Origin: an uncultured Arenicellaceae bacterium
Lineage (GTDB): Bacteria; Pseudomonadota; Gammaproteobacteria; Arenicellales; Arenicellaceae
Direction: 5' to 3'
DNA: 40,325 nt
Assembly: GCA_938002995.1 (NCBI GenBank)
Contig: CALKZN010000013.1
Span: forward strand, 1-40,325
Below, piece by piece: positions 24,605 through 33,062 of this stretch. Position 1 is the stretch's first letter; every line of letters starts with the position of its first letter. A program made the position numbers and the translations under genes. A model generated the notes under the pieces. The model was not told the origin of the DNA. It searched no databases and worked only from the letters and a program-made list of their open reading frames with translations.

Positions 24605-24628
24605 ATTACCTAATCGAATAATTTAATC
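24599..24628. repeat. Perfect 10-bp inverted repeat across a convergent gene junction
   Basis: GATTAAATTA-CCTAATCGAA-TAATTTAATC, overlapping the stop codons of the EamA and STT3-like genes. Confidence 0.6.
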
Positions 24629-26481
24629 AAACTAAATTTATTCTTAATATTTTCTTGATGAATAGTTTTATGAAAAAAACTCTCTAGATCGTTATAAAAC
24701 AAACCCTTAAATAACAATGTAGACTCCATAACTGCATTAACTATCGCCAATCGATATCTACCATCTTGCTCAAATAGTACTAACACCTTTGATCCCATAC
24801 TTAATGGATATCTCTGAATACCTCTTTCCGAGTGCAAGATTATACTGTGAATATTTTCTTGATTGTCTTGCAAAAGCAATTCCATATTTTTTTTAATGAA
24901 CTGATATTTACCGCAAAATATTTCTTTACCTTTTACTTGACAATCGTATACATCATCGATAATTTCAGACATTAATTTATTTTGTATATCTATGGAAGCA
25001 AACCGCCTTATTATGGGATGAAAAAAATCAAACTTTTCATTTAAATATAAGTAAATCGGTATTTTTTCCTCTGTACACTCTTCAATATCTATTTTTCTTT
25101 CAAGACAACTGCGATTTCGAATTTCTTTTATTGAGGAAGCATTATTTTCATAAATAACATTTGCAAATAGCGATAACCTGTCCTTAGTACTTTTCGAACC
25201 TGGATCTAAAAATGCATATCGTTGCGAAATTGCATTAATGTAATAACCATAGTCCCACCAACTCAAAATCACAGCATCTTTTTCAGTTAGGCGTTTAATC
25301 AAACTAAACTGACGATATTGATCATCATTTAAACGCTCAGTTTGAACATGTAAATTGAGAATATTCCAACAATTCAAAACAAAAATTAGGGCAATGCTTA
25401 TTGAAAAAAAATATTTTTCAATAAAATTTATTCTAGATAACTTTATATATGCATGCAGGCAAAAAATTGTTGCAATCACAAAAAAAATGCTTAGCCTAAC
25501 AAACAGCAATGTCGCAATAAGAAAAATTATACTTATAAACATATATGGAAATACTTTTACAAGTTGGCGTTGGTGTTGTAATTTAAATAACATTACAACC
25601 GCACAAAAAACAAGCAATATAACTATCGGTTCCAGCAGCACTAAATCTGCAAATTTCATTCCCTCAAGCTCTTGAGTATGATTTAACCTGCTTATTTCAT
25701 TCGTTTGATTAGAGCCAAATATATTGATAACTTTTATTCGAAGAACCTCAAAATAACTAGATGAAAAAAACTTCTTAGTTATCAAAACAACTGTTACACA
25801 ACTGAAGGGTATTAGTGTAAAAAAAACAGGCTTATTCAATAAAAAAGTACGCGGTAATAATAAAAACAAAACCGGAATTAATAAAAAGTACCAACTACCC
25901 CAAAATGTAGATACTACATACAATAAAATAAAAATTCCTATAAGGTCGATTGAGGTTTTTTTAGTAGATACTCTATTGGGAAGAGTCAACAGACTGAAAA
26001 TGATAACTACTGCTAAAACATAGAAAGCATTATGATCAATGTTCCCAAGTTGAGTATTTTTAAAAAAGGAAGGACTCGTAATAAGTAAAAGGCAAAAGGA
26101 AAATACTGCTAACTGATTGGAGTTTTTACTGAAACTAAAAAATAAGATACTGATAGAAAATAATGCTATAAAAAAGGGGAAGAAGTAGAGAAAGTACTTT
26201 GGATCTTTGACAGAAAGTTTTTGACTAAATGTTGTAAGAAAGCGATAAAGTGAAACAACTAAATTTCTGTTATTTTTTACATTATCAGAGCTTAGTGTTT
26301 GATCCAAATAGTAGTAGCTGTCAGTACCAATTAGATAACTTTGACGGTATTTATCTTGAAAGACACTATCTCTAGAAGGGTTAGGAAAAACACTTTGAGG
26401 CACATATTCAAGAGTAAAAACAATACACGCTTGCAGACATAACAATAAGAAAAGGCTCAATAAATGTTTATAGTGAAACAT
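24610..26481 (-). CDS. STT3/PglB/AglB-like oligosaccharyltransferase, multispanning membrane protein
   Basis: 623 aa; many TM helices; luminal-loop motif GTDSYYYLD (D54), GNIDHN (about residue 146) and WWDYG (about residue 408, DNA 25246-25260) followed by a soluble C-terminal domain: the three STT3 hallmarks in order. Confidence 0.82.
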   Translation of the reverse strand: MFHYKHLLSLFLLLCLQACIVFTLEYVPQSVFPNPSRDSVFQDKYRQSYLIGTDSYYYLDQTLSSDNVKNNRNLVVSLYRFLTTFSQKLSVKDPKYFLYFFPFFIALFSISILFFSFSKNSNQLAVFSFCLLLITSPSFFKNTQLGNIDHNAFYVLAVVIIFSLLTLPNRVSTKKTSIDLIGIFILLYVVSTFWGSWYFLLIPVLFLLLPRTFLLNKPVFFTLIPFSCVTVVLITKKFFSSSYFEVLRIKVINIFGSNQTNEISRLNHTQELEGMKFADLVLLEPIVILLVFCAVVMLFKLQHQRQLVKVFPYMFISIIFLIATLLFVRLSIFFVIATIFCLHAYIKLSRINFIEKYFFSISIALIFVLNCWNILNLHVQTERLNDDQYRQFSLIKRLTEKDAVILSWWDYGYYINAISQRYAFLDPGSKSTKDRLSLFANVIYENNASSIKEIRNRSCLERKIDIEECTEEKIPIYLYLNEKFDFFHPIIRRFASIDIQNKLMSEIIDDVYDCQVKGKEIFCGKYQFIKKNMELLLQDNQENIHSIILHSERGIQRYPLSMGSKVLVLFEQDGRYRLAIVNAVMESTLLFKGLFYNDLESFFHKTIHQENIKNKFSLIKLFD

Positions 26482-26489
26482 CCACCCAG

Positions 26490-27635
26490 TTATTGATTAC
26501 TAGATTGTCTTTTCTGCATTTCCAAAATTTTTTCTTGAAATTTTTGGCGATTTAATTGTTCACGATAAAGTTGTTCCGGTTTTTTTTTAGCAGCCTCAGA
26601 TCGTTCTTCTTGACTAAGGTTAGAAAATGACTCCGTTGAAACATCAGAATTAGTTTCAATAATTTCTTGACTAATTTTTCTAATTTCAGGGTTTGAGCTG
26701 TTTTGAAAAGGCTCGACGTATGACACTGTTGCAGGATCCAACCAAAGGCTCACTTCTTCAAGCGCAGTTAAGACAACCTTTTCATCGATGTCTTTTAATG
26801 CATTTAGTGTTAGCCATTTTGCTGCGAATGAATCACTGCTTGATAATGAAGACAATACTTCAGCCCTAATTTCAGGATTATCTGACTGATGAAAAATTTC
26901 AGCTAAGGTTCTTAAACCAGTACTATCAAGGTTGATTTGATTGACAAAATCAATTGTCTCTTCGAATGGTGACTGGCTTAACAATTGACCAACATCATCA
27001 TAAACAAAACTTCCTGAGTCATTGTATGTTTTTATCGTTATAGCATTTGAAGAAAAAGGGAAATCAATAGCTAAATCTGACGCAATTTTTTCAGAAGAAA
27101 CCACTCTTGCTCGCAAAGGGTTATATTGCTTATCTGTGTTCTGAGCTACTTCGCCTATAAAAATAACATCTATCTCAGGTTGTGCACTTTCTGACAAGTC
27201 TTTGTATTTAATTGAGTACTGATGCCCATCTAACAAGCTTCTGAATACACTCTCAATAGCCACTCCATCACGAGTATCAATAGTCACTTTAGTGTCGTAA
27301 TTCACATCAGATTTGACAATAAAATTATATTCATCAGCTAAATCAAGAAGAATTTTTTTTACTGATGCATTTTTTGCTTGTAACAAGACCAATAATTCAT
27401 CATAGGAAATATTTTCAATCCTATACAAGCCATCTACAAGTTCACTATCCAAATTTTTTCTAGTTTCAATATCTCGATCTACTGAATTATCTTGAGGCAA
27501 ATATATAGAAACTTTTTTAGCGCCGTCGACACTTTGTTTGTTGATATCACTCGGACTATCTTGATCTGCAGGCTGACATGCGACTAAACAGAACAAAGCA
27601 ATTACAACAAAACTACTACGCACATATGACATCAT
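26490..27635 (-). CDS. Lipoprotein with apparent STN/secretin-N-like region and HEAT-like repeats
   Basis: VVIALFCLVAC lipobox; ASVKKILLDLADEYNFIVKSDVNYDTKVTIDTRDGVAIESVFRSLL resembles STN; NPEIRAEVLSSLSSSDSFAAKWLTLNAL...NPEIRKISQEII HEAT-like; 9 bp upstream of the STT3-like gene. Confidence 0.65.
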   Translation of the reverse strand: MMSYVRSSFVVIALFCLVACQPADQDSPSDINKQSVDGAKKVSIYLPQDNSVDRDIETRKNLDSELVDGLYRIENISYDELLVLLQAKNASVKKILLDLADEYNFIVKSDVNYDTKVTIDTRDGVAIESVFRSLLDGHQYSIKYKDLSESAQPEIDVIFIGEVAQNTDKQYNPLRARVVSSEKIASDLAIDFPFSSNAITIKTYNDSGSFVYDDVGQLLSQSPFEETIDFVNQINLDSTGLRTLAEIFHQSDNPEIRAEVLSSLSSSDSFAAKWLTLNALKDIDEKVVLTALEEVSLWLDPATVSYVEPFQNSSNPEIRKISQEIIETNSDVSTESFSNLSQEERSEAAKKKPEQLYREQLNRQKFQEKILEMQKRQSSNQ

Positions 27636-27682
27636 TTCAACCTATTTAATAAACTTGATTTTTAGTTAAAGCCGTAAGAGCC

Positions 27683-29278
27683 TTATAATGGATTGATTCG
27701 CAACAAAGCACGGATTCGATTAGGCCTGAGCGTAGGTTTTGTTGTTACACCAGCAATAGTACTTATACCTGATGCGAAAATCGTCGTAACCAATCCCCTG
27801 TCAGCGCAAATGTGCCAAGAGTCTCCTGAGGTCTGAGCAACACCGCCAATAGAGTCATTACTTGATCTCTTAATTTGAGGCAATTCAGTAGTCGACCCAA
27901 AAAAGTTTCGACTCATTCTGACAGGCATAATCGCTATAGGAGTACCAAACGACTCTGCCTCTAAAAAGAAAACTCCACATCGTCCGTTCATTCCTGCGAT
28001 AGAATTTTCACCTAGGTCATAAAAGTTATTATTACTTATTGTCGTAAATTTTCTATTACGGAAATCATTCGTGTCTTGTTGGGTTATAAACAACCCAACC
28101 CCAGCATCAAAGCCATTAATATTATTACCTCTGATAAATCGAGAGTTTGAAGAAACGACTCCGGCAGCCTGACTATTGATCTTAGTTGCTGAAATTGTAT
28201 TGTCTAAAATACTTGCTCCACCACCAATATCAGTCACTCCCAAAAGAGTGGGATTAACAATAACATTCCTAGAAACTGTTTGTGGTGTTAAAAGGCTTAT
28301 CGAAGCATAAAAACTATCAACAATATTATTGGTTATTCTAGCTTTCTCAGAAAGAGATACTATTCCTGAAGAAAGAGCATCCCCAGAGTTTCCTACCTTT
28401 TCAATATTATTATCACTCACTAAAGATCCGCTACCTGATAATATAATCCCAGCAAAACCTGCATCTCTAAAATTTGACGCTTTGAATGGAAAACCCGCCA
28501 TGCCGCTTATTGAGCGAAAATCATGCTTGATATTATTATTTTTTATCGTTGACCTTCTAGTCGTTTTAGACAAGTCAATCACATCAACTCCGAAACCAAG
28601 AATATTATTTTCAGTCAAGATCACGCTATCACCAATAACGTTCACTGCGCTTAGAGATGGAGCAGTAACAAGTGATGCAACAGTAGGGTTAAGAGCATTA
28701 TCTAACTCACACCCAATTGCTTTACTTGCGGGAAGTTGATCAACAATTTGATATAAATTATTTCCTTCAATTCGCAAACCCGCAACAAGACTAGCCGGGC
28801 TAAAAATTTCTTCGGCTGTATAAACAATAAATGAAGCTGCTGGAGGAATGATATTACAATTAACAATTTCTGCGCCATTACCAGCACGAATCACTTCTGC
28901 ATTTTTAGACAAGATAGTGAAGCCTTTGCCTCTAATCTTTCCTATCGAAACGCGGTCAGATTGCACATCGATAGTAGGCCCAGTAGCTGCAATGCTACCT
29001 CTTCCATCAATGGTAGTGACTTTTGACCCACCAGTGGATTCAAGTTTGATACCTATTGTATTAATAACCAAGTTTTCTTGGTAATTGCCAGGTCCAACAA
29101 TAATACGCGAATTCGGTGTTGCTCGATTTAGTGCCGCATTAATTAAATTGCAAGGCTCTGTACGAGAACATACTGCATTTTCCTCTCCCCACTTTTCTAC
29201 ATATAACGTAGCAGCATAAGCCGAGTTAACTATTAAGGCAGATGAAATAATCGCAAGCCTCATCAATGTATTTTTCAT
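27683..29278 (-). CDS. Secreted right-handed beta-helix protein, paralog A
   Basis: Signal peptide MKNTLMRLAIISSALIVNSAYA then ATLYVEKWG; repeated NNI/SDNNIEK, ITNNIVDS, SRNVIV turns; DUF1565/NosD-like layout. Start set at internal ATG 29278 with RBS AGGGAAC. Confidence 0.82.
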   Translation of the reverse strand: MKNTLMRLAIISSALIVNSAYAATLYVEKWGEENAVCSRTEPCNLINAALNRATPNSRIIVGPGNYQENLVINTIGIKLESTGGSKVTTIDGRGSIAATGPTIDVQSDRVSIGKIRGKGFTILSKNAEVIRAGNGAEIVNCNIIPPAASFIVYTAEEIFSPASLVAGLRIEGNNLYQIVDQLPASKAIGCELDNALNPTVASLVTAPSLSAVNVIGDSVILTENNILGFGVDVIDLSKTTRRSTIKNNNIKHDFRSISGMAGFPFKASNFRDAGFAGIILSGSGSLVSDNNIEKVGNSGDALSSGIVSLSEKARITNNIVDSFYASISLLTPQTVSRNVIVNPTLLGVTDIGGGASILDNTISATKINSQAAGVVSSNSRFIRGNNINGFDAGVGLFITQQDTNDFRNRKFTTISNNNFYDLGENSIAGMNGRCGVFFLEAESFGTPIAIMPVRMSRNFFGSTTELPQIKRSSNDSIGGVAQTSGDSWHICADRGLVTTIFASGISTIAGVTTKPTLRPNRIRALLRINPL

Positions 29279-29339
29279 ATTTTGTTCCCTATGAACCAAT
29301 CTTTTATACCTAAATCTTTAAGTGTCTATCTACTTTACT

Positions 29340-30926
29340 TTAAAATGGGTTAGTTCTAAAAATTGCACGGATACGATTCGCTCGTAATGAAGGACGAGTC
29401 GTCACATTTGTAATTTCTAGTTTTCCTGTCGTATTACTAACAAGACCACCTGCAGTACATGTATGCCATGCTTTTCCTAAAGTCGTAGCTACGTCTGTCA
29501 TAACAGAGCTCGAAGACTCTTTAATTTGTGGAAGTTCAGTGGGAGAACCATAGAAATTCCGACTCATTCGTATTGGCAAGTCGACATTCTTAATAAAAAC
29601 ACCACAGCGACCAACAGGACTTCCAAAGAAATCTACATTGTTTGAATCATAAAAATTATTGTTACTCACAGTAGTAAATCGAAGTTTAATTGGAAAAAAT
29701 ACTCGCTGATCAATTTCTAACGACGTACTCCCATCATTTACAAAACCACTGATATTATTGCCTCGAATAAAACGAGAATTGGTAGCAGAGATTCCTATTG
29801 AAAAATTAACATTTTCAGAGGATGAAAACACCGTATTATCAGTAATTGTCGCTGATGAATCACTCGCAAAATCGCTAATACCAACAAATGACGAATTAAT
29901 AACAATATTACGAGAAACTGTTGGCGCAGCGAAGGTATTGATGTTTACCGAAAAATTTTCAACAATATTAGAAGTAATTCGAGTTCTTTCTCCGTCAGAA
30001 TCTATGCCATTAGTAAAAGTGACGCCTGAATCTCCCAATTTCTCAATATAATTATCACTAATTAAAGAAGAATTACCAAAAATATCTAAAGCTGCATATG
30101 AAACGATACCCCCAAACGGACCCGAACCTGGAAAAGGAAAACCAGAGATCGTAGCTAATGTATTAAAGTCATGCTTGATATTATTACCTTTAATCGTCGA
30201 CCTTTTGACAGTCTCTGATAAGTTCAAAACTGTAATTCCTGTGCCAATGATATTGTTTCCCGTCAAAATAACGCTATCTCCAACCACTTTGACAGCATCA
30301 AGTGATGCGTTCTCCGACAAAATAGAAGCGGTTGGGGCATTGAAATCATCTAATGAACAACTTGAACCGACAAGATTTGGCGCCGTGGTAATATTTTGAA
30401 ACAAATTGTTTCCTTCTATTCTTGCACCTGAAACCCTCACTTCAGGAGAACGTGTCGCATCCGCGAAGAAAAAAGTATCTCCCCCAAATGAAAACGAATC
30501 AATTCCGCATGCTGTTACTTCTGAGGCAGTTCCAACCCGAATAATTTCAGCATCTTCACTTAAAATTGTGAAACCTTTGCCACGAATCTTACCAATCGAA
30601 ACACGATCTGCTTGAATATCAATTCCAATTACTCCTGACCCAATATTAGCCGCGTCAATTACTGTAACCTGTGGGCCACCCGTTGATTCAAGTTTGATAC
30701 CTGTTTGTTGTATTAACAAACCTCCATCATATCTTCCAGGCCCAACTATAACTCGTGAGTTAGGTGTCGCTATATTCAATGCAGTTGATATCTGATCACA
30801 TGGGTCTTTTGCAGAACATGCTCCACTTGGGCTACCCCATTTCTCTACATATAATGTAGCGGCATTTGCGGATGAAAAGTAGAGAATTGATACTGCAATT
30901 ACAGATTTCAAAATTGATTTATTCAT
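29340..30926 (-). CDS. Secreted right-handed beta-helix protein, paralog B
   Basis: Signal peptide, ATLYVEKWGSPSGACSAKDPCDQISTALNIATPNSRVIVGPGRYDGG; same N- and C-terminal blocks as A and C. Confidence 0.83.
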   Translation of the reverse strand: MNKSILKSVIAVSILYFSSANAATLYVEKWGSPSGACSAKDPCDQISTALNIATPNSRVIVGPGRYDGGLLIQQTGIKLESTGGPQVTVIDAANIGSGVIGIDIQADRVSIGKIRGKGFTILSEDAEIIRVGTASEVTACGIDSFSFGGDTFFFADATRSPEVRVSGARIEGNNLFQNITTAPNLVGSSCSLDDFNAPTASILSENASLDAVKVVGDSVILTGNNIIGTGITVLNLSETVKRSTIKGNNIKHDFNTLATISGFPFPGSGPFGGIVSYAALDIFGNSSLISDNYIEKLGDSGVTFTNGIDSDGERTRITSNIVENFSVNINTFAAPTVSRNIVINSSFVGISDFASDSSATITDNTVFSSSENVNFSIGISATNSRFIRGNNISGFVNDGSTSLEIDQRVFFPIKLRFTTVSNNNFYDSNNVDFFGSPVGRCGVFIKNVDLPIRMSRNFYGSPTELPQIKESSSSVMTDVATTLGKAWHTCTAGGLVSNTTGKLEITNVTTRPSLRANRIRAIFRTNPF

Positions 30927-31004
30927 GATTTTTTCCTTGTATAAATATATAGGAGATTTATTAAAAATAAGCCTCCTTTCAAAATGGCTGGCTTAGGTTC
31001 CACC

Positions 31005-31018
31005 CAAACATTAACTAT
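31005..31018 (-). promoter_or_regulatory. Shared 14-bp upstream element, copy before paralog B
   Basis: CAAACATTAACTAT, identical to 33134-33147, 79 bp upstream of the start codon. Confidence 0.4.
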
Positions 31019-31209
31019 CAGTAAATATTATATCCTGAAAACTTCTTCCTTTTAAACAATAAAAAATGATTAAACGTTAAAAATCATAAATTTTCCAAAA
31101 ATTAAACTTATTTTCTAGAAAGTTGGAAAACATATATTTCCATTGGGGTAAATATTAAATTCATTTGAAGAATATAAAAACACCTAACTGGTAAGCCCCT
31201 AGTATTCTA

Positions 31210-31250
31210 GACACTTAATAGCGTTACAATTAACGCATTATAGAGGTGTC
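31210..31250. repeat. Imperfect palindrome between beta-helix genes C and B
   Basis: GACAC...GCGTT-ACAATT-AACGC...GTGTC; outer and inner 5-bp arms pair, middle mismatched. Confidence 0.4.
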
Positions 31251-31442
31251 AACCTAAGATTAAAACACATACATTAAGAAACCCTACCTAGAATCTCTTC
31301 TTTTGTAAATTTATTACACCTTCGCTTTATAGTAAATTTCATTCACTCGCAGACTCAAGTTACCTATAATCTACCGTCACATACCCTAGCTTCTATTCAA
31401 TATATGTCAAATTAGGTTTACCTCTATAGTATGCATAGCAAA

Positions 31443-33062
31443 TTAAAGTGGATTACTTTTGAAAACTGCACGAATACGATTAGGTCGCAATGATGGTCTA
31501 CTAGTCACATTAGTGATTTCAAGCCTACCAGTAACATTGCTAACCAAGCCGTTTGCTGCACAAATATGCCATGAGCTACCAACGCTTCCAGGTACACTAT
31601 GAACAAGTGAACCACTTGACTCTTTAATCTGTGGAACTTCCACTGTAGATCCATAAAAGTTTTTACTCATTCTAGTCGGAGTCTCGACTTTTCTAATGAA
31701 AACAGCACATTTCCTATTCACAGGAACAATAGGAATAATTATAGTGGACGTCTCATCTAGAGCTAATGATCCAACATAACTACGAAAATCATTCACATCA
31801 TAAAAATTATTATTAGCAATTAATGTTTGTCGAACCTTGCTCGGGCTAGATGGCGAACTGCGTTGATCTATTATCAAAGCAGGTGAGCTAAAGCCACTGA
31901 TATTGTTTCCCCGAACAAAACGAGCATTGCTAATAAACATCCCTGTTCCAAGAGTAGAAGAATGTACAATATTGTCAGTGATAATTGGAGAAGAAAAACT
32001 TGCCAAGTCCGCAATCCCATAGAGAGAAGAACCCAAAACTATGTTTTTTGATACTGTTAGTGACCCTGCAATACTCATATTTATATCAAAGTTTTTCACA
32101 ACATTTGAAACAACACGTATTTTTTCTGACAATATAGATGTCACCAAACCTACTGTGAATACAGACTCAGAGCTGCCGATTTTTTCAATTAAGTTATTGC
32201 TAATTTGTAAACCCTTACCATCTGCTCTTAAGGCATCATATTGAGAAACGAAACCTAATGAGTCTCTAAAAGGAAACCCATCAATACCCATAAAATCACT
32301 AAAGTCATGCTTTATATTATTCCCTATAATAGTCGATTTTTTAATAGTGTTAGATAACTGAACAACATTAGTCCCACTGCCTACAATATTATTCTGTGTT
32401 AGAATTACCCCGTCTCCCACCACACTTATGGCATTAAGCGAAGGTCTTTCCACTACCTCGACCGAGTTAGGGCTATCATAGTCATCTAACCAACAAATAG
32501 AATCTATTGAAGCTGGCTTAACATCGGCTCTTTGAAGCAAGATATTACCTTGGATACGAGTGCCGGATATATGAGTTGAAGGGGATCGAGTTTCACGTCC
32601 ATAGAAAAATTTTTCATTACCAATAAAAAGGGTATCAATTTCACATGCTATTAAATTTCCAAGCTCACCGATCCTAATTATTTCAGCATTTTTACTTAAT
32701 ATTGTAAAACCTTTTCCTCCAGCCTTACCCACAGAAACTCTATCAGCCTGAATATCTATACCAATTATTCCAGAGTCATCATTAGTCGCATCAATAATAG
32801 TGACTTGTGGTCCACCCGTTGACTCTAGCTTGATACCGCGTTGTTGAATAGAAAGACCTCCATCGTACCTGCCTGGGCCAACTAAAACTCTAGAATTAGG
32901 TGATGCTATGTTTAGGGCTGTTGTAATTTGATCACACGGATCTTTTGCAGAACAAACTCCACTTGGATTGCCCCATTTTTCCACATATAACGTGGCTGAA
33001 TTTGCTGATGAAAAGCAGAATATTGACGCTGTAAATACAGACTTCAAAAAAGTTTTTTTCAT
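31443..33062 (-). CDS. Secreted right-handed beta-helix protein, paralog C
   Basis: Signal peptide, ATLYVEKWGNPSGVCSAKDPCDQITTALNIASPNSRVLVGPGRYDGG; C-terminal PSLRPNRIRAVFKSNPL. Confidence 0.83.
   Translation of the reverse strand: MKKTFLKSVFTASIFCFSSANSATLYVEKWGNPSGVCSAKDPCDQITTALNIASPNSRVLVGPGRYDGGLSIQQRGIKLESTGGPQVTIIDATNDDSGIIGIDIQADRVSVGKAGGKGFTILSKNAEIIRIGELGNLIACEIDTLFIGNEKFFYGRETRSPSTHISGTRIQGNILLQRADVKPASIDSICWLDDYDSPNSVEVVERPSLNAISVVGDGVILTQNNIVGSGTNVVQLSNTIKKSTIIGNNIKHDFSDFMGIDGFPFRDSLGFVSQYDALRADGKGLQISNNLIEKIGSSESVFTVGLVTSILSEKIRVVSNVVKNFDINMSIAGSLTVSKNIVLGSSLYGIADLASFSSPIITDNIVHSSTLGTGMFISNARFVRGNNISGFSSPALIIDQRSSPSSPSKVRQTLIANNNFYDVNDFRSYVGSLALDETSTIIIPIVPVNRKCAVFIRKVETPTRMSKNFYGSTVEVPQIKESSGSLVHSVPGSVGSSWHICAANGLVSNVTGRLEITNVTSRPSLRPNRIRAVFKSNPL

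Follow-up and report, generated by a model that had tools for sequence, protein, structure and literature searches.

A strongly diverged STT3-family oligosaccharyltransferase gene beside beta-helix and lipoprotein genes in an uncultured Arenicellaceae bacterium

The STT3-like protein and its active-site residues

The window analysed here is a 40,325-nucleotide stretch of DNA from an uncultured Arenicellaceae bacterium and represents contig C13 of a 2.0 Mb genome in 186 contigs. Five open reading frames (ORFs), all intact and all on the minus strand, were found within positions 24610–33062 in the order beta-helix C, beta-helix B, beta-helix A, lipoprotein and STT3-like protein, in the places and with the spacing described in an earlier reading of the letters alone (the sequence-only reading). 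The main subject is the last of these genes (24610–26481, minus strand), whose predicted product is a 623 aa oligosaccharyltransferase of the STT3/PglB/AglB family with a multi-helix membrane part and one short C-terminal globular core domain.

The core-domain model PF21436 (STT3-PglB_core) matched the protein at 26.3 bits, above its curated cut-off of 23. The hidden Markov model check proposed earlier, with the N-terminal membrane domain PF02516, failed at 17 bits relative to a curated cut-off of 24.5, and a genome-wide PF02516 search returned nothing. This shortfall looks like divergence, with a model too strict for this protein, because the profile of a 25-row alignment (A5; 24 relatives taken from named genomes, plus the window STT3) aligns with experimentally solved STT3 structures over the membrane part and because the predicted structure has a GT-C fold; the family assignment was therefore kept. 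A single-sequence search of the Protein Data Bank (PDB) gave STT3A and STT3B at E values of about 0.002–0.003 and the PglB C-terminal domain at 0.012, and the A5 profile matched PDB entries for STT3 of human, yeast and other fungal origin as well as for PglB and AglB, with E values from 5e-69 to 1e-46. The AlphaFold model (predicted local distance difference test, pLDDT, 70.6; predicted template modelling score 0.69) showed the GT-C fold with a globular domain, and its best PDB matches were the PglB structures 6gxc (E=1.3e-15), 5ogl and 3rce, in the range 1e-15 to 2e-14, followed by eukaryotic and archaeal enzymes and DPY19. The AlphaFold input alignment contained STT3s, so that the fold match is supportive rather than independent, and it concerns the fold only, the membrane orientation being presumed. 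Based on the core-domain score, the profile search, the model and the key catalytic residues, the protein is assigned to the STT3/PglB/AglB oligosaccharyltransferase family, in agreement with the sequence-only reading.

The three motifs on which that reading relied are present in the correct order. The first-loop motif GTDSYYY (residues 52–58; 26308–26328, minus strand) aligns its catalytic D54 with PglB D56, a column that is Asp in 25/25 A5 rows and 33/33 comparison rows. The second acidic motif, GNIDHN (residues 146–151; 26029–26046, minus strand), was placed by column counts and alignment equivalence, and its D149 keeps the acidic residue of PglB D154. The WWDYG motif (residues 408–412; 25246–25260, minus strand) is evident both in the sequence and in the A5 columns. 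Two further positions, E271 (25669–25671, minus strand; equivalent to PglB E319 in external loop 5) and R329 (25495–25497, minus strand; equivalent to PglB R375), are an invariant Glu and an invariant Arg in A5, and D54, E271, R329, W408, W409, D410 and G412 were all invariant over the 25 aligned proteins. Both catalytic acids, the counterparts of PglB D56 and E319, are thus retained as D54 and E271. In PglB, R375 contacts the pyrophosphate of the lipid-linked oligosaccharide (PMC7226087). Among other proteins of the class, the aligned WWD was not canonical in five STT3-like proteins (genes in L010, L011, L012, L120 and L122; e.g. TSWDAG and GDWGKG), which kept the other key residues.

The co-encoded proteins and the flanking genes

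The lipoprotein gene (26490–27635, minus strand) is 8 bp from the STT3 gene and encodes 381 aa with an LVAC lipobox, Gln at +2, an STN/N0-like region at about residues 83–168 and HEAT repeats at about 243–320. Beta-helix A (27683–29299, minus strand; probable ATG start at 29278) is separated from it by 47 bp, and beta-helix B (29340–30926, minus strand) lies 40 bp from the TTG of A, or about 61 bp from its first ATG. Beta-helix C (31443–33062, minus strand) is set apart from B by 516 bp of only 29% GC, and therefore only B, A, the lipoprotein and the STT3 gene look like a single transcription unit, with co-transcription of these four probable. Within the block, sites resembling promoters or terminators did not exceed the number expected by chance (35 vs 34.9 and 5 vs 4.5, respectively), an Rfam search gave no match, and no phage family was assigned to the three block proteins tested with PHROGs.

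The three beta-helix proteins are paralogues, with C 59% and A 50% identical to B, and Sec-type signal peptides were judged by eye. Their assignment as beta-helix proteins is weak by sequence: C matched PF13229 weakly (E=0.002), and all three fell below the cut-offs of PF13229 and PF05048, both of which were exceeded by a relative of B from another genome (L065:7188-8510). The assignment appears to be supported by the AlphaFold model of B, in which the mean pLDDT was only 47.7 and a beta-strand ladder at about residues 280–420 reached about 70–82, and by the fold matches of that model, which were mostly right-handed beta-helix proteins, chondroitinase B and phage tailspikes among them, with no match reaching E≤0.001. 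The family resembles right-handed beta-helix proteins (PF13229, and PF05048 NosD) in weak profile matches and in fold matches, and differs from them in being multicopy and secreted with a TLYVEKWG-type N-terminus and in having no specific enzyme family assigned.

For the lipoprotein, the Pfam matches to STN (E=0.008) and HEAT_2 (E=0.04) were both weak, and its profile matched alphaRep HEAT-like proteins and, weakly, a PilQ N-domain. By the +2 rule, Gln at this position would direct the protein to the outer membrane. A lipoprotein paralogue with HEAT repeats was found in the same neighbourhood in the genomes G444 and G445 of the order (L063:8958-10019 and L064:8750-9748), flanked by coproporphyrinogen-oxidase-like and KdtA-like genes to one side and by a gene resembling an aminopeptidase to the other (names assigned by eye). 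The retention of this neighbourhood suggests an older role for the lipoprotein family.

The genes flanking the block are ordinary on both sides. One flank carries a phosphate-regulon cluster (PhoX, PHO4, PhoU-like, PhoB and PhoR), an L-lactate dehydrogenase-like protein and an EamA transporter; the other carries an alpha/beta hydrolase, a thioesterase, an AMP-ligase and a TRAP transporter. At 12 loci in the same family carrying orthologues of the flanking hydrolase, used as an empty-site and synteny test, none of the neighbours in the window was kept beside them.

Origin of the STT3 gene and its neighbourhood in other genomes

In a maximum-likelihood tree, the window STT3 stood alone on a branch of length 2.99, and its identity to each of the other rows did not exceed 18%. 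The remaining nine STT3s from the order and class (G028, G037, G054, G426, G435, G204, G276, G374 and G423) grouped apart from it in the same tree, together with Thermodesulfobacteriota in a supported PglB-like clade. Like the window protein, these nine match PF21436, and they also match PF02516 where scanned; unlike it, they are 695–737 aa long, five of the nine are without a canonical WWD in the alignment, and the genes next to them, in the cases inspected, encode DPM-like glycosyltransferases, flippases or SdrD_B/collagen-like proteins.

Searches with the protein's own sequence gave nothing at E≤1e-3 in the 110 order genomes and 369 class genomes covered, with order and class as assigned in the genome collection, and single-sequence searches of related genomes, viral contigs and plasmids likewise gave no close relative. 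These negatives are limited by the sensitivity of the single-sequence searches, in which even the order's other STT3s went undetected. A scan of genome contigs with a two-row alignment found only distant STT3s and HaoB; the scan used two short peptide patterns and would miss relatives lacking them. The best-scoring relative was a 474 aa STT3-like protein on a Dehalococcoidales contig (L024:9197-10621; E=5e-14), whose gene has DNA methyltransferase, integrase/invertase and phage-family genes around it and may be on a mobile element. The GC content of the window STT3 gene, 0.294, was the lowest among the window genes measured (the others ranging from 0.34 to 0.46, with 40% for the genome). Because of this low GC content and the lone long branch, the gene was probably acquired horizontally.

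STT3 enzymes are rare in the class: PF21436 was present in 7/110 genomes of the order (E≤0.01) and 5/369 of the class (E≤0.001). Their genomic contexts varied. In G204, G435 and G442 the neighbours were DPM-like glycosyltransferases and polysaccharide genes, in G037 and G028 nothing obvious was seen, and in G054 two SdrD_B/collagen-like secreted paralogues and a flippase were present, with one such secreted protein on the short contig of G426. The STT3 gene of G442 (L123:8049-10489) is split into two adjacent frames, by either a frameshift or an assembly error. The SdrD_B/collagen-like secreted genes lie directly upstream of STT3 in two order genomes (L119:3361-11500 and L121:1421-5548), with a flippase downstream in L119, which is another arrangement of STT3 next to surface-protein genes. 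In Desulforhopalus singaporensis (L041:8760-14303), two type IV pilin-like genes lie directly upstream of two tandem STT3 genes, and the second pilin has 5 sequons compared with 2.5 expected.

Relatives of the window's beta-helix proteins were found at none of 33 STT3-like loci from named genomes, and the lipoprotein profile gave one weak match at these loci (L036; E=8e-6). This match (L036:2695-3489), on a Lachnospiraceae contig with an STT3-like gene, probably reflects HEAT repeats only. The beta-helix family itself occurred in 5/110 order genomes at E≤1e-5, strongly in G444 (one copy) and in G445 (13 detected copies); the G445 copies (L104–L113) are dispersed, often as tandem pairs. Lipoprotein paralogues were present in both of these genomes, and on contig C91 of G444 one lies directly upstream of a beta-helix gene. 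No PF21436 match at E≤0.01 was obtained in G444 or G445, which are 92% and 83% complete, so that absence is likely, not certain. The beta-helix and lipoprotein families therefore occur, and once adjoin, without a detectable STT3. The conserved co-occurrence of STT3, beta-helix and lipoprotein genes anticipated by the sequence-only reading was not found, since the two families exist in G444 and G445 without a detectable STT3 and other STT3s have other neighbours; that reading had itself named such an outcome as refuting its proposal.

Donor, acceptors and competing interpretations

The sequence-only reading had noted that a glycan donor would have to be made from genes outside the window, and suitable candidates are present in the genome. 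A PF00953 GT4-family (WecA/MraY-type) transferase and a PF02719 CapD-like protein are both encoded on contig C134, a PF13440 Wzx-type flippase is encoded on C35, and GT2-type domains were found at 13 places. Because of these genes, an undecaprenyl pyrophosphate-linked glycan donor for the STT3 is plausible. In the mechanism that we propose, the enzyme would be an inner-membrane protein whose core domain faces the periplasm. Ordinary surface-polysaccharide genes would supply the undecaprenyl-linked glycan, which the enzyme would pass on to Asn of N-X-S/T sites on exported proteins. Its gene would probably be co-transcribed with the outer-membrane lipoprotein (STN/N0 and HEAT) and with beta-helix A and B.

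The number of N-X-S/T sequons in the co-encoded proteins was compared, after removal of signal peptides, with the expectation from shuffles of the same protein. Beta-helix A was poor in sequons, with 1 compared to 8.2 expected (P=0.001 for so few), and the values were 10 vs 8.5 for B, 4 vs 6.6 for C and 5 vs 3.3 for the lipoprotein. Only a single acidic D/E-X-N-X-S/T site was present among the four proteins, in C; plain N-X-S/T is the fairer measure because Desulfovibrio PglBs do not require the acidic residue (PMC4894442). Three sites (GNNIS, VSNxT and ITNVT) are common to B and C and absent from A. The 16 beta-helix family members of G444 and G445, genomes lacking a detectable STT3, had on the whole as many sequons as expected or more. 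Judged by these counts, sequons do not mark the neighbouring proteins as acceptors; B and the lipoprotein are possible acceptors and A is an unlikely one. If the neighbours are acceptors, the likeliest would be B, whose mature part carries 10 sequons, and the lipoprotein, which has 5.

Among characterized enzymes, Campylobacter PglB (3rce, 5ogl and 6gxc) is the best fold match, is a single-protein enzyme of similar size, and shares the equivalents of D56, D154, E319, R375 and WWD. However, identity over the fold match is 12%, and the window STT3 lies outside any pgl glycan locus, adjoining lipoprotein and beta-helix genes instead. The metal site of PglB includes R147, D154 and D156 together with D56 and E319 (PMC7226087). 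Of the equivalents of R147, D154 and D156, one is kept in the window protein (D149) and two are changed according to the alignment columns, with N151 in place of D156 and N142, just upstream of GNIDHN, in place of R147. The archaeal enzyme AglB belongs to the same family, carries WWDYG and also has a non-acidic residue at the D156 position, namely His (H163; PMC7226087). Unlike AglB, the window protein has a short C-terminal core only, is encoded in a bacterial genome and occupies a lone branch that is not placed reliably.

The reading that we prefer, to which we give about even weight, is that the protein is a strongly diverged, probably imported STT3-family oligosaccharyltransferase located beside beta-helix and lipoprotein families that also exist in the order without STT3, and that it is most likely a working or recently working N-glycosylation enzyme, with its acceptors predicted among exported proteins. 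Several observations weigh against this reading. The two metal-site substitutions, together with E25 at a position where 33/33 comparison rows have Arg, mean that activity may be altered or lost, and enzymatic activity judged from the residues is plausible, not assured. Low GC content by itself is no proof of transfer, and the tree indicates that the window STT3 is not a close relative of the nine other STT3s of the order and class and no more than that, the placement of such a long branch being unsure. The exported proteins encoded in about 985 kb of the genome, selected by a simple hydropathy rule rather than a trained predictor, showed no excess or deficit of N-X-S/T (ratios of 0.98 and 0.97). 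Acidic sequons were depleted in these proteins (11 vs 24.4 in a first sample and 3 vs 7.3 in a second; 14 vs about 32 together), and a weaker depletion was also seen in G001, a relative without STT3 (10 vs 16.4). Acidic-sequon depletion was rejected as a signature of STT3 on account of this control and because other control motifs deviated equally in cytosolic proteins.

In the sequence-only reading, the STT3 had been taken as part of a dedicated system for surface glycoproteins, N-glycosylating the beta-helix proteins and/or the lipoprotein encoded beside it. Adjacency alone would have pointed to such a system, and it is favoured by the tight spacing of B, A, the lipoprotein and STT3 (40–61, 47 and 8 bp), by the 10–11 sequons of B, three of them in common with C, and by other STT3s that adjoin secreted or surface genes (SdrD_B/collagen-like in G054 and G426, pilin-like in Desulforhopalus). 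The wider comparison gives it no support, as there is no conserved co-occurrence, with 13 detected beta-helix copies in G445 and one in G444 in the absence of a detectable STT3, no beta-helix gene at any other STT3 locus examined and the single lipoprotein-profile match being the weak one of L036. Sequons are likewise not enriched, with B and C at or below expectation, A depleted, and STT3-less family members having as many or more; dedication to the neighbours is therefore considered doubtful. A more elaborate version, in which the protein represents a new STT3 clade, set apart from the others and changed in its metal site, that one lineage added to a pre-existing beta-helix/lipoprotein module and that acts on the beta-helix surface proteins and/or the lipoprotein, is regarded as quite improbable. 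The enzyme might instead act as a general oligosaccharyltransferase on exported proteins whose genes lie at other places in the genome, its own position beside the beta-helix genes being incidental. This is a somewhat stronger contender, although still on the unlikely side: the neighbourhood is not conserved, the orphan phylogeny and low GC content fit, and the neighbours' sequons are not enriched, but the 8 bp to the lipoprotein gene suggests co-expression, there is no genome-wide sequon footprint beyond that of the STT3-less control, and a motif search of the sampled part of the genome gave no pilin-like protein.

It is also conceivable, if unlikely, that this diverged GT-C protein, although STT3-like, has lost N-glycosylation and is either inactive or engaged in another polyprenyl-linked activity. 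The Asn residues at the R147 and D156 equivalents, E25 in place of an otherwise invariant Arg and the long branch are consistent with this, as are the STT3-like proteins of the class without a canonical WWD and the occurrence of a WWD stretch in HaoB, a protein of another role. Conversely, the 623 aa frame is intact and D54, D149, E271, R329 and WWDYG are all kept, and AglB has His at the D156 position (PMC7226087). Under the preferred reading of a diverged, probably imported oligosaccharyltransferase, a protein that stands apart from all STT3s compared and has two metal-site substitutions would test how far the active site of these enzymes can vary. An active enzyme might also extend the range of biocatalysts, possibly with sequon rules of its own, as Desulfovibrio PglBs did (PMC4894442).

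The STT3 query also drew in HaoB (TIGR04392, E of about 1e-90) at two Methylocystis loci (L051:9680-10648 and L055:9677-10645). In the library of papers searched, none names both HaoB and STT3. HaoB and the globular core of STT3 have an AVVLAWWD stretch in common, and the window STT3 in turn scores E=0.004 against the model for HaoB, which might be a soluble protein distantly related to the STT3 core domain.

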